Below are positions 5,175 through 57,611 of a stretch of 64,000 bases of DNA, in pieces. This DNA is from Sistotremastrum niveocremeum HHB9708. Its lineage: Eukaryota; Basidiomycota; Agaricomycetes; Sistotremastrales; Sistotremastraceae. The translations under genes were made by a program, and so were the position numbers. Below the pieces are notes generated by a model that made no database searches, was not told the origin of the DNA, and saw only the letters and a list, made by a program, of their open reading frames with translations. How positions within the stretch are numbered: position 1 is the stretch's first letter; every line of letters begins with the position of its first letter. The DNA lies in assembly GCA_001630475.1 (NCBI GenBank), contig KV419444.1:9515-73514 (forward strand). Reading direction: 5' to 3'.

Positions 5175-6318
5175 TCACCGCTGCTTGACCATCATGGTCA
5201 ATCCCTGACTCAAAAACCCCTGAGATTGCTTAGTTTAAGTGCACTTGAATCACTGTCGATTGGACAAACTTTAGATACTTGAGTTTGCCAGCCTTGAAAA
5301 AGTCCGTGAATACCGTCTCGTTGCAGCGCGTCGCGCCATATCTGGAGTGAGTCAACACTTCCTGAGCTCGCTTGCAACCGAGTCTTCGCCAGAATGATCG
5401 GGAAGAGCAAAGTCGTCGCTGTACAGGTTTACAAATGAGATTTCTTCCGCGTTTCTGAACGATATGGTAAGAACCGAATGCATTTGATAGAGCTGCCACA
5501 ATGAAAGCTTGCAGAGCACCAGGATTTTTACGACATTTGTCTCTGAGAATAATTCGGCTTAGAAGTTGATAGAAGCAAAGGGTGACCGATGGATTGAGAC
5601 ACAGCACAAGGGTTGTTCTGAAACCTGGATGTGCGACGCTCAGTTGACCAGATTTTTTTATCAAACATCAGACTACCCTTCCAGAATCCAGTGAGTCCCT
5701 GCTCAGTATATATTGCGCGAGCGACGCCGATGACAGTAGCCTCCGTTACCTCGCCTTTACCGCTGCTTTCCGAAACTTCGGCATCCTTCTCTTTCTCGCT
5801 TTGCAGTCGTACTGTAATTAAACTGAGTGGCGATGAGACCGCACGGGAACCTGCGCCGGCAAAGAAGCCAACAGCTAACTCTTCAGGCACGGAAAGCGAC
5901 GAGAGTCTTTTTGTCCTTTGTTTTCGACGCAGGAGAAGAAATCGCAAGGCGGAGTAGACATAAAAATAGCAAAAGCTGACGAGTTTTAGCACCAAAGCGG
6001 CTTGTGTCCAGAGAGATTGTCACTTAGAGAGAAAAGTCGATCCTGTATCGCTTACAAGGCCATCATATAGACCAGACCACCCGCGTTTCCGAAATACCAC
6101 GGAGAGGATATGGATGGCACCCCGCAAGCCTGATAAACTGGTATAGGTTATCAGTAATTTGAGCGAGCCTCTCTGCACTGACCTTGTGGCCTGTCTTTTG
6201 CCCGAACAATTTGCAATCGAGTGCTGGCAAGATCAAGTGGGTAGGACGTAGCATTCGCAGTGGCAGATCCAATTGCGCCAGAGAACGCCTGGATCAGAGG
6301 CGGCAAAGTCGACGTCAT
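5175..6318 (-). CDS. Mitochondrial carrier family protein, probable peroxisomal adenine nucleotide transporter (ANT1/PMP34-like)
   Basis: This is a member of the six-helix carrier family. The first repeat has SYPLDLASTRLQIV, the second SSPLSLITVRLQSEK and the third PIILAKTRLQASSG. The segment LVLCLNPSVTLCFYQL resembles the NP-containing helix of peroxisomal PMP34/Ant1 proteins, which import ATP into peroxisomes for fatty-acid activation. The first and second signatures lack the usual mitochondrial balance of charged residues, which also fits the peroxisomal branch. The start is MTSTLPPLIQAFSG at 6318. The last exon begins GFLSQGLTMMVKQR and stops at 5175-5177. At least five exons are required. 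The exact substrate is an inference. The gene is convergent with the protease gene, with a 233-bp spacer. Confidence 0.75.
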
Positions 6319-43391: not shown

Positions 43392-46227
43392 TCACCGTAT
43401 TGTATCGATGAAGCCCATAGCGGCTGCGACATTCTCATGGAAGGCTTTGGGCCCCAGCAACTCGAATATGCCACTCTTCTCGAAATATTCTCTGGGTTGT
43501 GGCCGAAGATGAGTTACAAAGAGGCCCACACCACGTGCCTGAGTTTTGTTTCAAATTAGTATTACGACGGACAGGAAAGGTGATCGCCTACCTTGTATGT
43601 CTCCAACAATTCATAGAAGATCTGGGTTGCCCTTGAAGTTCAAATTGTGTGAGAGTTCAAATCATTCTCGACGCTTCACACTCACGAGGCATCAATAGAT
43701 TCCACGTCCAACATGTGGAAGACAAGCTTCGTTGCTTGAGATCTTCTCGGCTCTTCAGAAGGATGGGCCTGACAGGCCAGGAAGCTCGTTCAGGATTGCG
43801 CTCAAGCTACGTAAAAGCACCGTACCTTATCGAGGCCATACAATTCGATTCGACGAAGACGTTCTATTCGGTGATGCTCAACAGAAGTCGGACGTGTAAA
43901 CTCCACGAACCGAGCTTACCTTTCAATTGCGCAGTATTGGCTAAGAGAACCTGAAGTCAGCTTACGTACAAGAAGAACTATGGGAGACCGACCAAAGTCC
44001 AGACTCTCCCTAATTCTAATGATCAGAACGCCTTCCTGTGCCTCTTCGGCGTCCGGATTCTCGTTGACAGGTTTCCATCGGTCCGTCCCAGGTATGTGGC
44101 CCTGAACATCATTATCTCCGGATTGGAGGGCTGACGTAATCAGATCAGGTGTACTCACGAGGATCGATATCCGAGTTTTCGATGAACGACGGACGACCAA
44201 GAGAAGAGAAATAATCACGCTGCATGTGACACCGACCTCCACATTCCACGCTAAGGTGAGGATGAAAGTCAACGACATGAGAGCCAGATCGATCCAAGCG
44301 CCCATCCTGCACCATGTTCATGAGTATTGTACGTTAGAATTCAGAGAGTATTCACGCACTTGAAGTAGAAAGCCAGGTCGTGCGGTGCTTCCGCAAGCAA
44401 CGACCAAACAACCAGGCTGATCCTAAATCGAGATCATTTGAGATGGTGCAAAGACGGATGAAAGTTCACGAACACGGAACCCAGGACACATTTGGGAAGA
44501 TATTCCAGGGCAGGTAAAAGGAAGAACGTGGCGAGGATTACGAGTGTAGAGCAAACCAACGATGCCATCTGAGTTCGGCCTCCGAAATCAGCATTGAGTC
44601 GCGACCTGTTTAACGAGTTTCAATGAGCGGGTTGAAAGTCCATTTGAAGTTGCACACACCTTGTGATGGATCCAAAGGCAGGAAGGAGACCAGGAACGAA
44701 GGAACCAACGAGGTTGCCCGCACCTTGTGGACATAAACGATTAGAAGGACGTCCCGCAACAACATCAACTACACCAACCCAAGGCCACCAATTCGCGGTT
44801 TGGACTGATAGAATAGCCGAAACGTGCGCCATTCTGCTTTGCAGCTACAATAGAATCTAAAAAGCCCACGACAGCAATCAAACTGAGAACTTGTTAGCCA
44901 CTTTGTGATGCCCGGAAATGCTGAACTCACACTGAAAGAGAAGTAGTTGACTTCATGAACCTCAAATTGGTCGGTTTCAGAGGGAATCCAATCCAAGCGT
45001 GCTCGGCCAGCGGTATTGTCCCAAGGATAGCGACTCCGTCTTCGTTCCACTTGAACATCTCCGAAAGTGCTGAACACTCTGTGAGTGATAGCAAGAAAAG
45101 CAGAACGAGAAAATACCTGTGGATGCGACGACAACAATTAGTACCTCTGGGATGAAGTAGACCCAGTTCCATTTGAAACGGGCTCTCAGTTCCGCTTTCG
45201 TTAAGCGGATGACGATGAGGATGGCCAAGGCGGTAAATGCAATGGAAGCAGTTTTTTCGTGCCCATTAGGAATGGCATATTCAAGCAAGAACACCATCTT
45301 GTCAATGGTGGTATCGAGATGATGTTGTTTCGCCAATTCAACCAATCCTAACATCGGTATCAGTTGCTCTCTATACACCGCCTTCAGTGACCCAGGTTGC
45401 AGCTCGAACATAGACTTACACCATGATGACTACCGCCTAAGGATCAGAGATCGACATTGATTAGGTAAAGCATTTGTAGTGACGAGTATGAACTCACGAT
45501 AGCAGTGACAAAACCTCTAAGAAGCGCTCTGCTCAACACCACATCAATGAAACCCAGACGAAAAATGCCAAGAAGAAACGAGAAGACGCCGACTTGAAAG
45601 GTGATGATCGTTGCGACAGCCACGCTTAATACAGCCGGATCATTAGGATAAGAATGAGGTTGTTCGTTTAACTCGGCCGCGACTGCTTGTCCGACTAGAA
45701 GACTCAAGGCCGCCTCAGGCGCCACATTCAGCTGACGCGAAGAACCAAGGAGTGCGTATATGATACCAGGAACGGCAGCTGAAGCCTGATCGAGTCAGCA
45801 ACGATCTCAGTAAAAGTTACAAAAGTCGTGAATGACGTACTAGGCCAGCAACTGGACTCAGTTTCGCCAGTGAAGTGGCATAACTAATGCTCTGGGGTAT
45901 CAAGACGCAAGCTACGGTAGCTCCTGCCAGGAAATCGCCGCCAAACCTGTGAAAGCGTGAGGAACGCGTTTGTAATGACCGGACGCCTTACGAGGAGAAG
46001 GAGTAATTTGGTAACCAATAAGTAGATGGTACATAATATGCAAATCTTTGTTTGATTTTCTTTCGAGTGCTTTCGTTCTTGGGTTGGCGGGTGCTTGTTG
46101 CTGCGGCACTGGCGCTATAACCACCAGTCTCTAAGATATTTGGAGTAAGGAGAGGCACGCGTTCGTTGGCTTCTAAGGAGGGCGTAGACCTGCCAGTGGA
46201 GAGGGCAGGCGTATCTGTGCCAGTCAT
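43392..46227 (-). CDS. SulP family sulfate/anion transporter with STAS domain
   Basis: This is a polytopic anion transporter of the SLC26/SulP family. The N-terminal tail is Ser/Thr-rich (MTGTDTPALSTGRSTPSLEAN). The transporter core begins TYWLPNYSFSSFGGDFLAGATVACVLIPQSISYATSLAKLSPVAGL, followed by YALLGSSRQLNVAPEAALSLLVGQAV, the latter being the substrate-site helix. Later come GFIDVVLSRALLRGFV, ELRARFKWNWVYFIPEVLIVV, VAAKQNG-type residues, GAGNLVGSFVPGLLPAFGSITR, and DLAFYFKMGAWIDLALMSLTF. A C-terminal STAS domain follows, including EEAQEGVLIIRIRESLDFANTAQLKERLRRIELYG and DVESIDASA-like residues, ending GFIDTIR at 43392. The sequence resembles the YPR003C/SLC26A11 branch more than plasma-membrane SUL1/2, so localisation in an internal membrane is possible. 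An upstream Met at 46269 is an alternative start. At least twelve exons are needed. Confidence 0.87.
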
Positions 46228-46629
46228 TTCAACGAGAATGAAGGAGGGCAAGTAATGGATTGCTGACAAGAGCCACGAGCATCAACGAACGGCGCGTCTC
46301 AAGCATGGTCCGGTTACATATTTCGTGTATTTTAGCTCATGCCGACACTCGGCAGAACGGAAGTAAGCCGGATCTTTGGCAAATCTCCAAGCTCGACAAA
46401 TTGGTCTACTTGAAGGAATACCACTGCAAATAGCTAACTTCAGAGTCCTTCGGACTACATCTGTGTATGACACCAAAACATTTTACTCTTGAAATTATAT
46501 TAATATTTCTATGCCATTCTTGGGAGCCTTAGGCTCAGTTTACCTAACTACAAAATATTACAGGCTTTGCTGATTCACTTGTTCAATCCTTGCTTCAAAC
46601 CCAGTACATCCTGTGAGCCATCTTTGGGT
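46228..46629. other. Spacer between the SulP and Argonaute genes, entering the CpG-depleted block
   Basis: Both neighbours are on the minus strand, so this holds the SulP promoter and the Argonaute 3' end. CpG is frequent up to 46451 and absent from 46452 onward. A small perfect hairpin (agtcc-ttc-ggact) lies at 46444-46456, just at that boundary. No other coding feature is seen. Confidence 0.55.
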
Positions 46630-49207
46630 TTATTTGTTTCCAATCATCTTGATTTCCTTGAACTTGTCCTTCTCCTTGGGACAGATGATATCTGGCTCTT
46701 GCACAGACAAGCTAAGAACTTGTTAGACACAATCTTTCTTGTGATGAGAAAGCCACTGCATACATCTGCATCTGAAACAGGGGTTAGTGATAGATGGCAG
46801 AAGAGAATGTGTAAAACTCACAAAAAACTGGGGTGGGAATAGAGACTGCAGAAGTTGCCCTAGCATAGTTATAGCAAAGACCATTACAGAAGCTTTGGAG
46901 AGAGTCAGATGTAAAAGCATTTTCATCATGCAAAACTGTGTAGTGGGAAGGCCTGCTGGCTGTCAAAAAATTGTCATTATTATTTTCCCAAAAGAATTAA
47001 CCCCAAACTCACTCCCCAACCTTCCATTATGAGACAGCAGGTACCAGTCTTTGATCTTGGTATTGGGAGTGGAGATCACATTGTCCACAATGAACCCAGC
47101 TGGTGCATTCTTCTGTCCCTGCTGGCCATTTTGTGGGAAAAACCTAACATGGTGCCTTTTGCCTACAACAACATAAGTGAATGTGGGCTTGGGCCCTGTA
47201 AGGTTGTTCTTGGCCATGAAGGTCTCAATCCCCACTGCAACATTATATTATTCTGGGCAGTGATATCAGAAAAGCAGTACTTCTGACCTTTGATATCTGC
47301 AATCTCTGCAATACCAGTGGTCAAAAATTCTCCTTCACTGATTCCATCTCTGAAGAAATAGATCTTTTGGGGACATTTTATATCCAGTTTTTGTACAGCC
47401 TGAAGAAGAAAATATCCTTGCTCAGTAATTGAACAATATACAACCAATCAACAGACCTGAAATTTCTTGAACATCTCAAGAAGATACTAACAGCAAAATG
47501 CAATCAGTTGCTCAGTTTACAGTGAAACTTATGATCACAGACCTCAATACTGGAAGCCAAGTCCACAATCTGCTCCACTCTAGCTTGTTGAATATTTGAA
47601 GATGCCACAAATTTAGTGCCATTTGCATCAACTGAACCCACAACAGCACTCATAGATGGAAGAGTAGACCCAGGACCAGGGTGACTAACATCAGCACCTT
47701 GAAATCAGGTGCATCAATAAAAAGCAGAGGTACAGAGTCTAGGTAATTGACAGACCTATAACCATGGATGGTGCCTTCTTCATTATTTTACCAACTTCAG
47801 AAGAAGTAAAATTTGTCCCATCTTGTTTGACATTGATCCTTATTGTGGCAGGGTATCATCAGCATTGCATTCATTTTTTTTACTAACAGTACACACTTTA
47901 ATCTTCACACCTTAGTCAGATTATCATTGCTTACAGATGAAGAATATTCAACTTACAACACATTTTTGCAGTATTGTGCATTTCTGTTCACCAATCCTTT
48001 CTTACACTTCTCACCAATCTGAGCAAAGAATCAATGAGAGTAATGCAGAGCTGAGATGACATACAAGGCATTGAGTGGGAAATCCATGCACCACATCTCC
48101 ATAGTGTTTCACAGCAGCATAAAGATCATCTGCAGCTGGAGGAAGAATGACAATAATGAGGGCACTTCTTGCTCCAGGTGCACCTTCATTCAGTGCCATC
48201 TGGTTTGCAGCTTGCAGTTGCTGTAATTGATCAGTCACAGATTGTTTGGAATTATATCTAAGGTCCATCACTCACCTGACTAATATTTCCTTGACCATTT
48301 TGGTGCATAACAGGAGGAGTTGATTTGTAAAATCCTGCAGTGAAGACATAATTGGAAATCTGAATCAAGATTTATATGAACTCACTCAATGCTGGAAGAG
48401 GGCATGGATGAGCATCAAACTGTATTGTACACAAAAGAATTGCTCACAAAATTGCTTGGCTGTTTCAGTCAATTGTTGACAGAATCCAGCAGCATCATTA
48501 TCTGTGAATCTTGCGTCATATATGACCACTACCCATGCACCAATCTGTGCTGGTTGATACAATGCAAAGTTTCTGATATTCCATTGTCCATCATTTGGAG
48601 TCTGTTGTTGCAAGTTAAATGAGTTGAGTACTGCAAAAACTGAACAGAATGAAGACAAATTTTACCATTGTTTGATTTGCAGCAAGATGTATGGTTGGAG
48701 GTTTCAAAAGGTGACCATCTACTTGCAATGGAATTTTTGCTACCTGTATCCCTGCTTCACGAACAAAAGGTGAGGTGTCATACTTGAAAATATTGCCAGC
48801 TTCCATGATTGAGCAGAGACAGCGTTCAGGTCCATCACTGGAAAATGCAAGCATTTTTGGTCTGCTCTCCTGTGGAAGTTGTCCTCTGAACATCTGTCCA
48901 GGAACAACAACACAAAGCTCTATAGGCACAACAGCACCACTTTGGAGGTGCACAGCAATGATGTTTGGATGCTGAATTTGAATATCATACACAGCATGAT
49001 AATAGTTCTGTATAACTGTCAGTATGTTGTGTTCAGCACTCTCAGAATTGAGATGAAGCACCTGCACTGTCATCTCATTTCCATCCTTTTCAAAAACAAA
49101 CTGAGATCCTTCAGGCACAATGTCCTGAATAGTTCCCATTTTATTGGCAGGATTAGTTCCCAAGTGGGTGAATTGAATCTTCACCCCCTGCAGAAATTTT
49201 GACAGTG
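46452..49207. other. CpG-depleted block (three CpG in 2,756 bp)
   Basis: Counting by eye, CpG occurs only at 48514, 48760 and 48823 between 46451 and 49208. Neighbouring DNA has several CpG per 60-base line (for example five in 50041-50100). GC content falls only moderately. The block covers half of PAZ, L2, MID, PIWI and the 3' flank of the Argonaute gene, introns included. TpG and CpA are abundant. The pattern fits long-term deamination of methylated CpG. Confidence 0.9.
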
Positions 49208-50370
49208 CGGATTGACAGCGTGGGGACAAATGAGCAAGATCTCGAGGATTTCTGATACCTTCAAAGTCTCGGACAAACGACATGATGAGATAAAACAGTG
49301 GTCCCGATTGATACCTAACACGGAAGTGAGCTCCGATACTGCTTCGAGTTGCATAGCAAATCGGAATCTTACATTGCTGTAGCTGTTACATCGAGATTGA
49401 CAAGCAACGTCTTGGCAACCGGTCTGACACTTCTTTTGGGGAATCAGTCACTGAGTAAACACATCTCAATGTGTTACGTACTGAGCATATCCCCTCCATA
49501 ACTCGAGGCCGCCACCTAGCTCCTGGCGCCCATGCTCGACGAAGATGGCGCGGGGTGTGTGTGGGTGTATCCTGTCAGAGCCGTGTATTCAAGTCAGATC
49601 CGTCACGGTCTCCTTCATGAGAAACCAAACATACATGACGGGAGCCTGGCGCAAAACAACATTGCAGTAGAGGATCGTTAACAGCGCTTGATTATACTCA
49701 TTCTCGGTAAGATTAGGGTCGGATTGCAGAAATCTTCCGAGAAACCTGCCATCGACGACGAACGTTAAGAGGGGTGTGTCGATAAATGACATGCTCACTT
49801 GGTGTCAATATCATTGACTTGTCTAATTATGATTTCCGTTTGTTTCGGAGGGGGGCGCCCCTGTACCCCATCAGAGAATCCGATTTGGAACTGTGTGGTG
49901 TATCGTAAAACCCTCGAAGACAACAGATCAAAGAACTCACTGTAGCAATGGCTCCCAAAGAGAGTCGTTTGAGAGAGAATAGACTGGACATCCCGTCGAA
50001 GGGACAGATAGGCTCAAAGACGTTTGCATGTTTGATTTGCCTGGAGCAGGAACACGTCGAATTGAATGCGATTTCGGATGCAAGTGATGCGTCAGAAACG
50101 TACAGACGATTGATGAGCTTCTGTCGACCGAAATGCCTCCCAGAAGGCGGCGGGTCGAATGCTGCGACGGTTTTAGGCGTGGATATGGGATAGATAGGGC
50201 GCATATACTTACCCACTAAAAACCGACCGGAGTGAGACCAACGATATTGTTCCGGAGAAATCCTTTCACGCACCATCATAATGATATATTATCCCCTTTG
50301 GCAGTCCTTCAATCTTGAACATGTTTGTGAGAGCTTTGTAAGGCGTGCCGTCTGGTCCACGATAAGCCAT
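46630..50370 (-). CDS. Argonaute protein (N, PAZ, MID and PIWI domains)
   Basis: This is the effector of RNA silencing that binds small RNAs. Spliced exons give [20 protein letters not shown] and GIIYHYD (N domain), FEPICPFDG and [11 protein letters not shown], and NVVLRQAP. L1 reads [37 protein letters not shown] reads [25 protein letters not shown] with [27 protein letters not shown]2 contains [17 protein letters not shown] reads [36 protein letters not shown] reads [46 protein letters not shown] and PTPVFYADV. Asp-Glu-Asp-Asp positions of the slicer site are all occupied. The C-terminus after YADV is unclear and lacks the usual aromatic end. Many 45-65 nt introns interrupt the gene. From 49207 leftward the gene is nearly CpG-free, while its 5' third is not. 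The frame is open throughout, which argues for function. Confidence 0.85.
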
Positions 50371-51109
50371 GGTTGGTATCAATAAAGTTGAATAAACGGC
50401 TAATCAAGACACGCAATCAGAACTTGAGAAGAAAGGAACATTTGTATAGAGACTTACTTGTTGTGATTCGATTTTTGGACGCGTCAAACTGAACAGTAAG
50501 AGATGCAACAAAGAGGAATTGAAATGGAGGACAGAGACCGCGCCTCGTTATTTGTACCAAGATTGAGGAGCGGTCACTCCGTGTCACAATAAACAAAGCG
50601 TCACCTTCACTCTTTTCCTCCTTCCTTGGATCCGTCTGGGAGCCCTGGACACGTTTGCTACTATACTCAAGACTAGCCGAGTCGACGTCGCGAATGCTCC
50701 AATGAGATGGACCCGAATTCAATCGCGTATTTCATCTCACCAATCGAATGATCTGATTTAGCGTCGTTTCCCCCTGCTCACCTGCGCAATTTTCAAAAAG
50801 ATGGTGAAAGAATGGCCGAGTTCTCATCTCGCCACACGTGAATCAAAAACTTCTTTCGATGAATTGAGCGGGGAAAAAATCAATATACTTGTGCCTGGTA
50901 CTCCAGCATCAATCCCGTCATCTCTCGACTCTGAGTCTTGCAACTAAAATTTCTCGGACTGCGCATGCGCAACCGGACGGGGAATCTCTCTCTCAGCCCC
51001 TATTATGTATTCCAGTTTGCATCACGAGATTTGGGTCCACGACCTCTCACATAATGTTATTCAGAATACTCGAGTATATTGGTAAACCCCCGATGCCTAT
51101 TTTATTTCT
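50371..51109. other. Argonaute upstream region
   Basis: This 739-bp spacer has normal CpG frequency. A consensus intron donor (caag/gtaagt-like, about 50448-50460) and a possible acceptor close to the Argonaute start suggest a 5' leader intron. A short upstream coding exon cannot be excluded. No other gene was recognised. Confidence 0.5.
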
Positions 51110-54100
51110 CTATCGCCGGCTCCCTATTTGACCAAATACTCTTCCCACAACAGTGACGACTCTACTCAATCCCACAAGCAACCCGATCGCAACTCCAACA
51201 TCAACCGCTATGACTCCAGCTGCAGCCGCCATAAACCTGGGCGCAAAGACCTTCCAAACCATCAAATGTCTCCTCAAAAACGCCGCTGCCAACGCACTCC
51301 CCAACAACAAGCTCACGAAATACGCTGATACACCCACACCAACTCTCAATGCATTCTTGGATACCGAACGCGATTGGCTAGGATCAGGAAGCGGGACGAC
51401 GTTCCATGATGCGATGAGGGCCGAAGCCATTGCAAAGAATATGTGGGGACCGAACGTATTGAGGATGACGAGGATGGGTGATACAAAAGCTGTCTTTGAG
51501 GATGTCAACAGGAAAGCCGTTTTCCACTGGATGGATGGAAATGTGGATTGATGGCCGGTTGCAAAGAATGTATGAAGAGCGAGTAAGGAAGGAAAAATGA
51601 GCTCCGACGAGAACTGAGGCGTGCTTTCTGAACCGGGTGATGTATTTAACGACTCTATAGCATTGCCAGGCGAAGTGGCTTTCGCAACGGCAGCGTTGAG
51701 CGATTTGATATCCCGTACACTGTCGACGATTTCAAGCCAGGAAAGGAAAGCGATAAGCCCAAGGGAGAGTGTCACTTGACCCGTAAGCTGAGTATCAACA
51801 TATAGGAGTGAAAAGAACAGAAGGATGAAAATGAGGTATGGTGACCCAAAGGTATTCGCAAATCCAATAATTTGGACTTGTGTAGTGCCTCCCGTTTCCG
51901 TCGGTGGCTGCCGTTGAACTTTGAGGCATAAGGGAAATATCCACCATATAGATAGCCCGCCGAAAGATACGGAGACCATTGCCGCCCAGGAAATAGCCGA
52001 TCGACATTGTCGAAAAACCGATGCATACTGTTCGCCGCCGATCAAGGAGGTCTCGGCCCATTCCAGCATCCAACAAATACTTCCCGCGACCCATACCGCT
52101 CGGAAGAAGTATTCTAGGAAGACTGGCGCAAGCTCTTGGTCGCTTTTGCTGATCTGTAAGAATCTTCTCACGGTGTTCGGTAACGTCAAGGTGACGGGAA
52201 GAACAAGAATGAGGATAAGAAGAGGGGGAGCGGCTAGGCTTGATGAAGCATAGAAGGTTACGCGACAATAGGGCTGTTGTTCTTCCCTGCAGACCGTACT
52301 CAGCGCCATCAACCGAACGCAGAGTGCACATAATAACGAAAATCCGATTACTCGATAGCGTAATCGAGGGGTCGGGGCTGATATGCCTGTAAGAAGATTG
52401 GGAGCGATGGCAGAGAGTGCCAAGTAGAGGACGATTCGATCCTCCCAGAAAGTGAAAGAGTTCGAGAAGAAGGATATCGAATGTAAGATCAGGATAAGCG
52501 GGAGGGAAGGAAGTGAGTCGAAAGAAGGACGAGTGAAATCAATGACGGCCAAGGAGACCGCTGCGGCGATAAGCCATACAGTCAGTTCCAGCGCCGAAAT
52601 CCCTATTGGGCCTAGAGTTCCAAGACCAAATCCCAATGAAGCCGCAAAAGACATTGCGATCAAGGCACGTCTTGAGATCACAAATGTCCAAGATTCCCAC
52701 TCTGACTCTTGGAGTTGTTCAAGCTTCTTGAAGAATTGCCATGCCACAACCAAGCTGGCGACGATGACAGAAAGTCCAAGTATCATCAAGATACTGTTGA
52801 ACTGTGCCCAGAGATGCCGGCAAACGATTAACGCATGCCTCACGAAAAGTGCATGACCCGCTCCTGTACTGGCTTCGGCGAATGTTTGCTCCAGGCCTTC
52901 CCAAGCACCATCAAGTTCTGCTCCTGAAGCACTGGCTCGATAAGCCTCGAGGTATCTGTGAACTTGCTCGCCGTTGAGACGAAGAGCTGTGGCGAGCAAG
53001 TCGGGGGCTTCGTCGGTGCGGATGAAAAGCTCGGGAATGACGGTGCCAAGGTTGTTAAAAGGTATGGGTAAACCTAGTAAAAGGGCGAGTGTGGGGACAA
53101 TATCGATTTGCTGAACCGATCGGTGCGGGTTTGGCATCCCAGGGAATGAAGTTTTAGAAAGTAGGGACGAGGGAATAGATGGTGAAGACTCGAGGGTAGG
53201 GATAGAAAGAGCAGAGGATTTAGAGTAAATCCACAATGCACTCGAGGTTTCATGCACCCCGTCTCCTCCATGATCCCCTCGAAGGTCCATCCCGTGATCG
53301 CCCATGACTACGAGGAGAGTATCGTCGTCTGCATATCCACATCAAATAGAGTCAACGCATTGGATGATACTGAACCTACCGATTTTGTCCACAAGAGAGC
53401 GCAGAACGGAGTCCATCTGTTTAAGCTTCGCATGCATCGCCTCATGAGACGGGCCAAGCCTATGACCAACATGGTCTACGCCAAGGAAGTGGCCGACTAT
53501 GAAATCCCACTGATACGCGGCTCGTTGTGTAACCAAGGGAAACAGATGACGTATAACGCCTTCATCCACCGTATGAAGATCCTCGACGTTGAATGAATCG
53601 TACGGGAATGTCATGTTGGGGTGGAATGACGTCGGGAAGACAGACATCCAAGTATCATCGCCCATAAATGCTACCTAGAGACAAGGTCTGTTTGGATGAA
53701 TGTGCGTAGACAACAGACTCGGAATGAAGAAAAATCTACCTTTTTGCCCTGATTTCTTAATTGTCTAATGATTGAATCTTCATCGATTTCGCTTCCCGCG
53801 AAATTCGAGCCCAAGTCCACGAACGTGGGCAATGACCCAGTCGTGATTCCTTTTATGCGCTGCAACGTCGTCGTTGGTGGATCGGAGTACGCGTTGAATA
53901 TGAAGCTCCTATCAGGAAACTTCTCGGTCAGCTCTCCCGGGAGCGTCAGGACACCATGGTGATGGGGTGATTTGGGTGAAGGATAGGTCGGCGAGACGAA
54001 GTCAAATCTTAAGGCATCAATGATGAGCACTATAGCTCTTTTATGTGTCGGTTCCATCGTACACTGGGATAATGGATGGCATCCTGAAATTTCAGATAGT

Positions 54101-56091: not shown

Positions 56092-57611
56092 CTATCTAGG
56101 ATAGCCGTTCCCCATCTGCTTCGGTCGGGATCCAATGCTTTTCCAACCATTATCAGCTCTCCCCGTTCTCCCCGCAGTATTATTATTACCCTTCTTATTA
56201 CCGTCCCCTCGCCCGCCCATATTAAGCATAGGTCCGCCTGTATTTCCATTCCCTTTTATCGCATCAGGGCCAATGGTTAGGCCGAAACCGTCTAGACTAC
56301 GCCTATACTCCTCGTCAAGAACATAGCCATTAGCCACAAATTCATCCCAGGTCGGCGACTTCGGGCGCGGACCAACGGCCGGTCTGACCCACGGAGTCGA
56401 AGTAGGATCTGGTCCCCAACTGGGGGTCGTAGGTCGAACGGCTTTCCACTTGGCGACTTTGTGGTTAAGAAATGCATCATCAGGGAAACACAGTCTAGTT
56501 TCCTCCTGGACATCTTCTTCGTCATCTTCATTCCAATCGCTTGTTGTCTCCCAGGCATTTTCAAATTCGACGTCTTCTAATGCCACGCCGGATATATTAG
56601 AGGAAGTAGAATTATTGAGGGGTTTTGTCGAGGTGGAGGCTGATGTTGAGGCTGAGGTGGAGGGGGCTGATGTAGGGTCGGAGGAGTCTTCTGGAAGAGG
56701 GAGGAAGGAGGCTAGAGTGGGGATCTGGGGTTGTGCTGATGACCGGGGAATGGGCTGTACCCATCGTCGTTCCCGGAGTCGTTTGTGCTGCCACCTGATG
56801 AGCGCCGTGCCACGGCAAGCGAAAGAAACGGGGAACGTACTCGCTCACGATCCTGATCCATGCGTTTCAGGACCTCTGCTTGTGGAAGGACCGCAGATGG
56901 ATCGTCTGATGGCTCTTGTTCCCCTTCATAGACACTAGATATAGAAGACTGGTTAATGTGATAGTACGGCAACGGGCTGAGAATAGACGCACGAGGCTTT
57001 TTGTCGACTTAGGTCGTCTATGACACTGTCGATGAGTGTTGCATCCAGTATTCTCTTTGTTCTCCAGTTCTCGAGAATCTGAACACGTATGTCAGGCCTG
57101 GGATACTGTGGCACGGGATAGAGTCATACCTGCGTCGTACTCATGAGATTTGGCAGCCCCTGCCGTCCTGCAGGTACAACATAGTTGACAATCTTTGGCA
57201 GGTCCCGTCCAACGAATTCAAGATAGTACGGCTTCTTGGATGAAGATGAGGAAGAGGACGGATAATCCGAGAATGTCGAGAGGCATGTTTCGCAGAGGGT
57301 GTCGAGGAGGTACAGGATATTGATACGACTATTGAGTGTTCCCTAAGCCTCATCAGTTCAGATGAATGCTAACGGAATATGTATCATAGCTCACGTTCTG
57401 GCATTCCTCAAGGAGACAGTCCCAAAGATCTTCACCGTGTCTCGAAAAGTATTTCAAGGCGTACCCAACTGTGCCACGAATCGACTGCTGAGACCTGACA
57501 CGACGAAATTAGGACTCTTGGTCAACATTCCACGTATTCGCGGGGAACTAACGCATTCAAGTGTCTCAGATGCGAAACAAATTGCATTCTGACCTCAAAG
57601 CCATCCATCAT
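56092..57611 (-). CDS. CTK3: CTD kinase subunit gamma (CTK3)
   Basis: This is the third subunit of the CTDK-I complex, which phosphorylates Ser2 of the RNA polymerase II C-terminal domain. The N-terminal CID-like domain reads MMDGFEVRMQFVSHLRHLNA, then after an intron ALKYFSRHGEDLWDCLLEECQN, then GTLNSRINILYLLDTLCETCL, PYYLEFVGRDLPKIVNYVVPAGRQGLPNLMSTTQ and LENWRTKRILDATLIDSVIDDL. The C-terminal CTK3_C region reads VEFENAWETTSDWNEDDEED. Beyond it is a Gly/Asn-rich tail containing WDEFVANGYVLDEEYRRSLDGFGLTIGP. The start is at 57611 and the stop at 56092-56094, only 55 bp from the RIT1 stop. At least five introns are needed. The long Gly/Asn tail is an extension compared with the yeast protein. 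Confidence 0.8.

Follow-up and report, generated by a model that had tools for sequence, protein, structure and literature searches.

The Argonaute gene and its CpG-poor block

The window considered here, that is, the whole stretch of 64,000 nucleotides (64 kb) from the genome of Sistotremastrum niveocremeum HHB9708, of a genus placed in the Agaricomycetes (contig KV419444.1, positions 9,515 to 73,514 of the forward strand), harbors an Argonaute gene on the minus strand, at 46595..50370, most of whose body falls in a block (46452..49207, no strand assigned) from which the dinucleotide CpG has almost disappeared. The ATG is at 50370 and the stop codon TGA at 46595-46597; the model, guided by a homologue annotated as Sistotremastrum suecicum HHB10207 (P0001), comprises 24 exons and 837 amino acids. 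The spliced alignment to P0001 covers all 837 residues with no internal stop and no indel, and only seven of them differ. In the Pfam search on P0001, ArgoN, ArgoL1, PAZ, ArgoMid, and Piwi scored above the cut-off and ArgoL2 below it; as scored on this homologue, the ArgoN, PAZ, Mid, and Piwi domains by which Argonaute membership was judged are all present. In the translation, the positions that normally hold catalytic residues are occupied by Asp, Asp, and His, which we take to be the catalytic motif. The Piwi-domain exons (46826..47196, minus strand; matches at C51:56340-56507 and 56525-56710 in the genome search) lie within the block.

An earlier annotation of this stretch, made from the letters without database searches (hereafter, the sequence-only reading), had described the gene as apparently intact, and the alignment bears this out. 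The possibility of a pseudogene was considered and rejected: a hand-made model looked frame-broken because of missed introns, and the corrected one is open throughout. The model requires micro-exons of 3, 6, 6, and 8 nt at 46764-50215, which are either real or annotation artefacts. The same reading had placed the CpG-poor block inside the gene; this holds for the gene body, but the first 1163 bp (49208..50370, minus strand) are spared, with 40 CpG against 42.3 expected in the exons (observed/expected ratio, O/E, 0.95) and 30 against 24.8 in the introns (O/E 1.21), and the block overruns the stop codon by 143 bp (46452..46594, minus strand), probably corresponding, by prediction, to the 3' untranslated region.

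Over its 2756 bp, the block contains three CpG versus 111 expected from base composition (O/E 0.027), in agreement with the three against about 100 of the sequence-only reading; the survivors lie at 48514, 48760 (Arg codon CGT), and 48823 (Arg codon CGC). CpG is indeed common on both sides, the 3 kb to the left containing 170 (O/E 0.97) and the 3 kb to the right 180 (O/E 1.04). The flanking rate would predict 161 CpG in the block, and the Poisson chance of finding three or fewer is about 1e-64. The longest interval between two consecutive CpG is 2063 bp in the block and at most 134 bp elsewhere in the window. Moreover, a maximum-likelihood segmentation of positions 44001-52000, whose edges were not preset, returned exactly 46452-49207. 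Exons (3 CpG versus 79.1 expected) and introns (0 versus 27.9) are equally depleted, as had been claimed.

The TpG+CpA ratio, whose calculation had been proposed as a check, is raised to 1.57, with an equal rise of TpG (1.55) and CpA (1.59), and GpC is not depleted (1.07). The matching rise of TpG and CpA, together with the unchanged GpC, indicates that CpG was lost on both strands via transition; read from the dinucleotides, this pattern is the one that methylated CpG leaves when it deaminates. In principle, the sharp edges of the block and its lower GC content (0.40) could also point to an introgressed or otherwise foreign segment with a CpG-poor composition. However, GpC is normal, and the two parts of the gene together match a single 837-residue S. 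suecicum protein without any indel; on account of this collinearity, contamination or foreign DNA was rejected as an explanation that we regard as extremely unlikely.

The Piwi search of the genome retrieved five Argonaute genes, and the other four loci are CpG-normal (O/E 0.84-1.16). Probing the assembly with the DNA of the Argonaute block retrieved only the block itself and 61 bp at 84% identity in a paralogue on C14, a CpG-normal gene whose protein shares about 33% amino acid identity with the window Argonaute over the best-matching stretch. The paralogue with the same block, which the sequence-only reading had suggested as possible support, was therefore not found in this assembly, where the block exists in one copy. 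No direct or inverted repeats of at least 20 nt were found in 45900-50500, no Rfam matches at the gathering score in 45500-50500, and no tRNA in the 64-kb window. The lack of both another copy and such repeats led us to reject a second copy or a hairpin as the trigger; the second-copy test consisted of a DNA search for the Argonaute segment and, for the DNMT1-type and Clr4-like genes described below, of the family searches alone.

CpG deserts in other silencing genes and in control sites

The genome contains two C5-methyltransferase matches, on C10 and C15. The gene on C15 is of the DNMT1 type and bears a second CpG desert (L057:2473-6976), with 24 CpG versus 198 expected (O/E 0.12). All of its 1148 codons are open, and 36 of the 1148 amino acids differ from those of the S. 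suecicum protein P0016, in which the methylase (118.1 bits) and RFD (27.9 bits) domains are above the cut-off and BAH (29.9 bits) is just under its own of 30.8; as scored on P0016, RFD, BAH, and C5-methylase thus occur in one protein, which is the architecture of DNMT1-RFD. Over L057:2751-6693, the introns hold no CpG (30.6 expected) and the exons 13 (129.8 expected). It is the only DNMT1-type gene found in the genome. At L057:6282-6976, the desert also takes in the 3' exons of a neighbour that is transcribed convergently from the opposite strand and whose protein appears BRCT-like.

Among the 16 SET-domain matches sampled, one site had no CpG, one had an O/E of 0.35, and the other 14 were normal; the pre-SET domain was looked for in the two depleted genes. 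The first gene, predicted from its domains to code for a Clr4-like methyltransferase of lysine 9 of histone H3 (H3K9), carries a desert at L142:4766-7456 (C5), with 7 CpG versus 115 expected (O/E 0.06). Its spliced model is identical, letter for letter, to its best match, P0017, annotated as S. niveocremeum HHB9708, and its frame is open; in P0017, SET (71.9 bits) and pre-SET (41.4 bits) are above the cut-off, and the chromodomain is weak (20 bits against a cut-off of 25.1). Over L142:4766-7333, the introns retain one CpG (23.6 expected) and the exons four (85.6 expected). As in the Argonaute, very short exons are required, here of 7 and 9 nt, either real or annotation artefacts. The second gene, on C2, codes for a pre-SET domain followed by a SET domain and has a partial desert (L143:1110-2576), with 27 CpG versus 64.7 expected (O/E 0.42).

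The comparison with ordinary sites was based on 101 controls: 38 random sites, 37 on kinase genes, 20 on SNF2 genes, and 6 on MutS genes. The random sites are those readable out of 40 (L074 and L082, consisting entirely of N, were dropped), the kinase sites were picked among 148 matches, and the SNF2 sites represent 20 of 22 places according to our grouping, one of them (L159) lying on the DNMT5-like gene of C10 and thus belonging to both groups. None of the 101 had an O/E below 0.5, the lowest being 0.61; hence, the 95% upper bound on the desert rate at ordinary sites is 2.9%, a figure to be read considering that, in most of the control genes, a single site of 301 bp was sampled and a desert elsewhere in the same gene would escape. 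CpG depletion equally frequent in ordinary genes, which the sequence-only reading had named as the result that would contradict it, was not observed. The deserts do not mark a broad housekeeping set either, as gene-body methylation does in animals and plants, none of the 63 kinase, SNF2, and MutS sites and none of the 38 random ones being depleted. An explanation based on meiosis genes was rejected, the six MutS-family sites being CpG-normal, in a partial test in which Msh4 and Msh5 were not told apart among them. Among the gene sites sampled, deserts occur only on the Argonaute, the DNMT1-type gene, and the two pre-SET/SET genes.

Even at reverse-transcriptase loci, deserts are uncommon: among the best 20 of 30 matches, 17 reach an O/E of 0.5 or more, one falls in the range of 0.2 to 0.5, and two, each situated at the end of a contig, stay under 0.2; one of these loci (L025) holds more than 1000 unreadable bases. 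The first CpG of L059, a contig end with a reverse-transcriptase match (C1:1-5467), appears only at base 5468, and L015, with such a match at the end of C27, has 7 CpG in 2.3 kb. Beside the CpG-normal reverse-transcriptase frame of L028 (C22), the flank L028:1-856 is free of CpG over 856 bp. In our window, a mild depletion is also seen at the left edge (1-1000; O/E 0.62, TpG+CpA 1.27).

Leaving out the window Argonaute, which was the starting point, from all of the following tests, full deserts are found in two of the three genes formed by the DNMT1-type and the two pre-SET genes versus 0/101 controls (p 0.0006, for a class drawn post hoc); when all the sampled silencing and SET-domain genes are considered and the partial desert is included, the proportion is 3/37 versus 0/101 (p 0.018). 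A rival hypothesis is that of an accident, according to which 1-3% of the genes would be body-methylated for unrelated causes (e.g., nearby transposons) and three silencing genes would be among them by chance. Two Pleurotus species do have 163 and 365 genes with methylated bodies, according to the report on them (PMC6627472), and our 0/101 bounds the rate only at 2.9%. At that rate, however, the chance of hitting the DNMT1-type gene and at least one of the two pre-SET genes is about 0.0017, and no direct or inverted repeat of at least 20 nt lies within 45900-50500. Furthermore, the marks appear to turn over fast in Pleurotus, where the two species have body methylation in common at only one pair of orthologues (PMC6627472), whereas losing 97% of the CpG while preserving the protein would need a lasting mark. 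We consider an accident unlikely, although not negligible.

Probable selection within the deserts and their shared layout

AGA and AGG account for 82 of the 97 arginine codons within the three deserts, counted between their segmentation limits, whereas outside they make up 13 of 37 (p 6e-8). Of the surviving exon CpG in the deserts, 15 of 25 lie within CGN codons versus 24 of 86 outside (p 0.004). When the three genes are pooled, the introns keep 1 of 82 expected CpG and the exons 20 of 295, with slightly narrower limits for two of the genes (L057:2751-6693 and L142:4766-7333). The spliced frames of the Argonaute, DNMT1-type, and Clr4-like genes have no internal stops. The preference of the surviving CpG for CGN codons is what is expected if selection resists mutation where the protein would change. 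Taken together, these counts would imply that the mutation pressure acted everywhere and selection kept the protein, the genes presumably being in use while they were marked. The decay of CpG may possibly continue in this species since its split from S. suecicum: in the Argonaute, two of the six amino acid differences inside the desert (both Arg-to-Cys) fit a single CpG deamination, and the one outside does not; in the DNMT1-type protein, four of 28 (R580H, A350V, A987V, and V1020I) fit CpG deamination inside the desert and one of eight outside. The direction of these changes is deduced, only the protein of S. suecicum having been available for the comparison.

The same data bear on the idea that silencing genes were selected to lose CpG and thus escape being shut down by DNA methylation. 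Such a self-immunity would produce deserts on this very set of genes, and CpG methylation could now hardly affect the Argonaute block. Yet, the loss is as complete in introns and in the sequence beyond the stop codon as in exons, the surviving CpG are commoner where deamination alters the protein (as expected from a mutation pressure opposed by selection), and the other Argonautes, the genes for RNA-dependent RNA polymerases (RdRPs), and the DNMT5-like gene retain their CpG; we judge this idea very improbable.

The deserts also share their layout. In the three fully modelled genes, a CpG-normal stretch runs from the ATG for 1163 bp (Argonaute), 507 bp (DNMT1-type), and 193 bp (Clr4-like), and the depletion goes beyond the stop codon by 143, 695, and 99 bp, respectively, and by 213 bp in the pre-SET gene of C2. 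Judged by CpG loss, the three genes have the organization of gene-body methylation, with the 5' end spared and the body covered. A unit that is spared at the 5' end and complete at the 3' end suggests that the mark is linked to transcription or to the transcript itself.

This extent, with the sharp edges of the Argonaute block and the specificity for CpG, is also what could be left by a duplication: segments once duplicated, for instance as a 5'-truncated retrocopy reaching the poly(A) site, would have been attacked at CpG before meiosis in a manner similar to repeat-induced point mutation (RIP) or methylation induced premeiotically (MIP), the copy being lost later. The near-zero-CpG stretches at the two contig-end reverse-transcriptase loci fit this scenario as well. 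However, the introns, which retrocopies lack, are fully emptied; in the assembly, the Argonaute segment occurs only once, apart from the 61 bp at 84% in an old, CpG-normal paralogue; and the intact frames, with arginine kept as AGA or AGG, suggest many steps rather than one burst. The scenario leaves unexplained, moreover, why three silencing genes were affected, and it appears improbable to us.

A proposed feedback of silencing genes on themselves and its known relatives

The explanation that we favor, with somewhat better than even confidence, is that the deserts are the trace of an enduring CpG methylation in the bodies of silencing genes that were at work, by which the writers would probably exert a negative feedback on themselves. 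CpG methylation would have persisted for a long time over the body of the working Argonaute gene, and on both strands the deamination of 5-methylcytosine would have converted CpG to TpG or CpA; selection on the protein would meanwhile have preserved the reading frame and the arginines, now almost all AGA or AGG. The same process would have acted on the DNMT1-type gene and on that for the Clr4/SUV39-like H3K9 methyltransferase, leaving the 5' end free and hitting the body and the 3' end. In this view, the enzymes that write heterochromatin and DNA methylation would repeatedly mark their own transcription units. DNMT1 would keep up the gene-body methylation, which either H3K9 methylation or RNA derived from the transcript would probably seed; an excess of silencing activity would then dampen its own genes, most likely as a negative feedback on dose. 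Since the Argonaute block holds just three CpG, it can hardly carry CpG methylation now, and any mark still acting on it would be H3K9 methylation or similar.

In its more specific form, which we put forward tentatively and with a little less than even confidence, this would be a methylstat working by self-marking: the DNMT1-type gene, the pre-SET/SET H3K9 methyltransferases, and one Argonaute would be standing targets of their own silencing, a dose-limiting feedback that would cover the transcription unit from within the gene up to its 3' end and would last long enough to erase most or nearly all CpG and leave the proteins unbroken.

Several observations weigh against this feedback. The four other Argonautes, five RdRP genes, nine RNase III-domain genes (9 of 11 places according to our grouping), and the SRA gene are CpG-normal, and so is the C5-methyltransferase of C10 (O/E 1.07), which is probably DNMT5-like, given a SNF2-domain match 3 kb downstream. 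In all the sampled silencing and SET-domain genes, full deserts number 2/37 versus 0/101 (p 0.07), and the test giving p 0.0006 defines its class after the fact. The desert of the DNMT1-type gene is less complete (O/E 0.12) and its left edge less sharp, and it continues for 0.7 kb downstream of the gene, entering the 3' end of the convergent neighbour. Both methylation as the cause and the lowered expression are deduced from sequence, and the dose effect is presumed. A search for HP1 (chromo shadow domain) gave no match here and none in the control genomes either, and is thus uninformative. Of the two proposals of the sequence-only reading, that of a sustained CpG methylation with deamination is supported by the dinucleotide signature and the intact gene. 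That of a silencing machinery marking one of its own genes gains support from the deserts on the DNMT1-type and Clr4-like genes, which came to light when this idea was put to the test, but it is not supported as a rule for the whole machinery, the other silencing genes being normal.

How a cell prevents self-reinforcing silencing from getting out of control is an open question in this field. A feedback on silencing genes, acting over evolutionary time and in three kinds of gene, seems to have left its record in the sequence of a wild fungus; if this were true, CpG deserts on intact genes would offer a cheap route to self-targeting epigenetic circuits in assembled genomes. In the open-licence literature, to which our search was confined (subscription journals being outside its scope), we found no prior report of methylation in Sistotremastrum, of CpG depletion in Agaricomycetes, or of self-silencing of an Argonaute or a DNA methyltransferase.

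As for the known systems, a 2026 review states that fungi, some exceptions aside, have largely lost gene-body methylation and that two to three DNMT1-RFD genes are present in most of the Agaricomycotina studied (PMC13297926); in the genome examined here, one was found. It describes RIP as a C-to-T change and MIP as methylation of a bounded segment (PMC13297926). Unlike these, the deserts described here involve only CpG, with no second copy found and no nonsense mutations; the inactivation by nonsense changes that would denote RIP or MIP is absent from the Argonaute, DNMT1-type, and Clr4-like genes. In the two Pleurotus species, body methylation is tied to weak expression and promoter methylation to the proximity of transposons (PMC6627472). 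The likeness to Pleurotus lies in a CpG methylation, here judged by CpG loss, that concerns a small minority of genes; the difference is that here the loss is nearly complete and falls on silencing genes.

In Arabidopsis, ROS1 and IBM1 are described as methylstats, in which methylated DNA in a gene of the methylation system ties its expression to the level of genome methylation (PMC6186995). As proposed here for Sistotremastrum, genes of the methylation system are themselves marked. In Arabidopsis, however, the sensors are antagonists (demethylases) and the methylation of repeat or repeat-flanking sequence promotes expression, whereas here the targets would be writers and an effector, marked over gene bodies in which no repeat is known.

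Fission yeast is not known to have DNA methylation. In its mst2 epe1 double mutants, ectopic heterochromatin forms at clr4+ as a negative feedback, as reported by Wang et al. (2015, PMC4395908); the same account indicates that RNAi is not needed for this self-silencing, that an intact clr4+ 3' UTR probably is, and that rik1+ can serve instead. The feedback proposed here would resemble that of clr4+ in that the gene of the H3K9 methyltransferase is itself silenced. It would differ in that, instead of H3K9 methylation in mutants, it would consist of an old, standing CpG mark in a wild genome, on three or four genes that include the DNMT1-type gene and the Argonaute.
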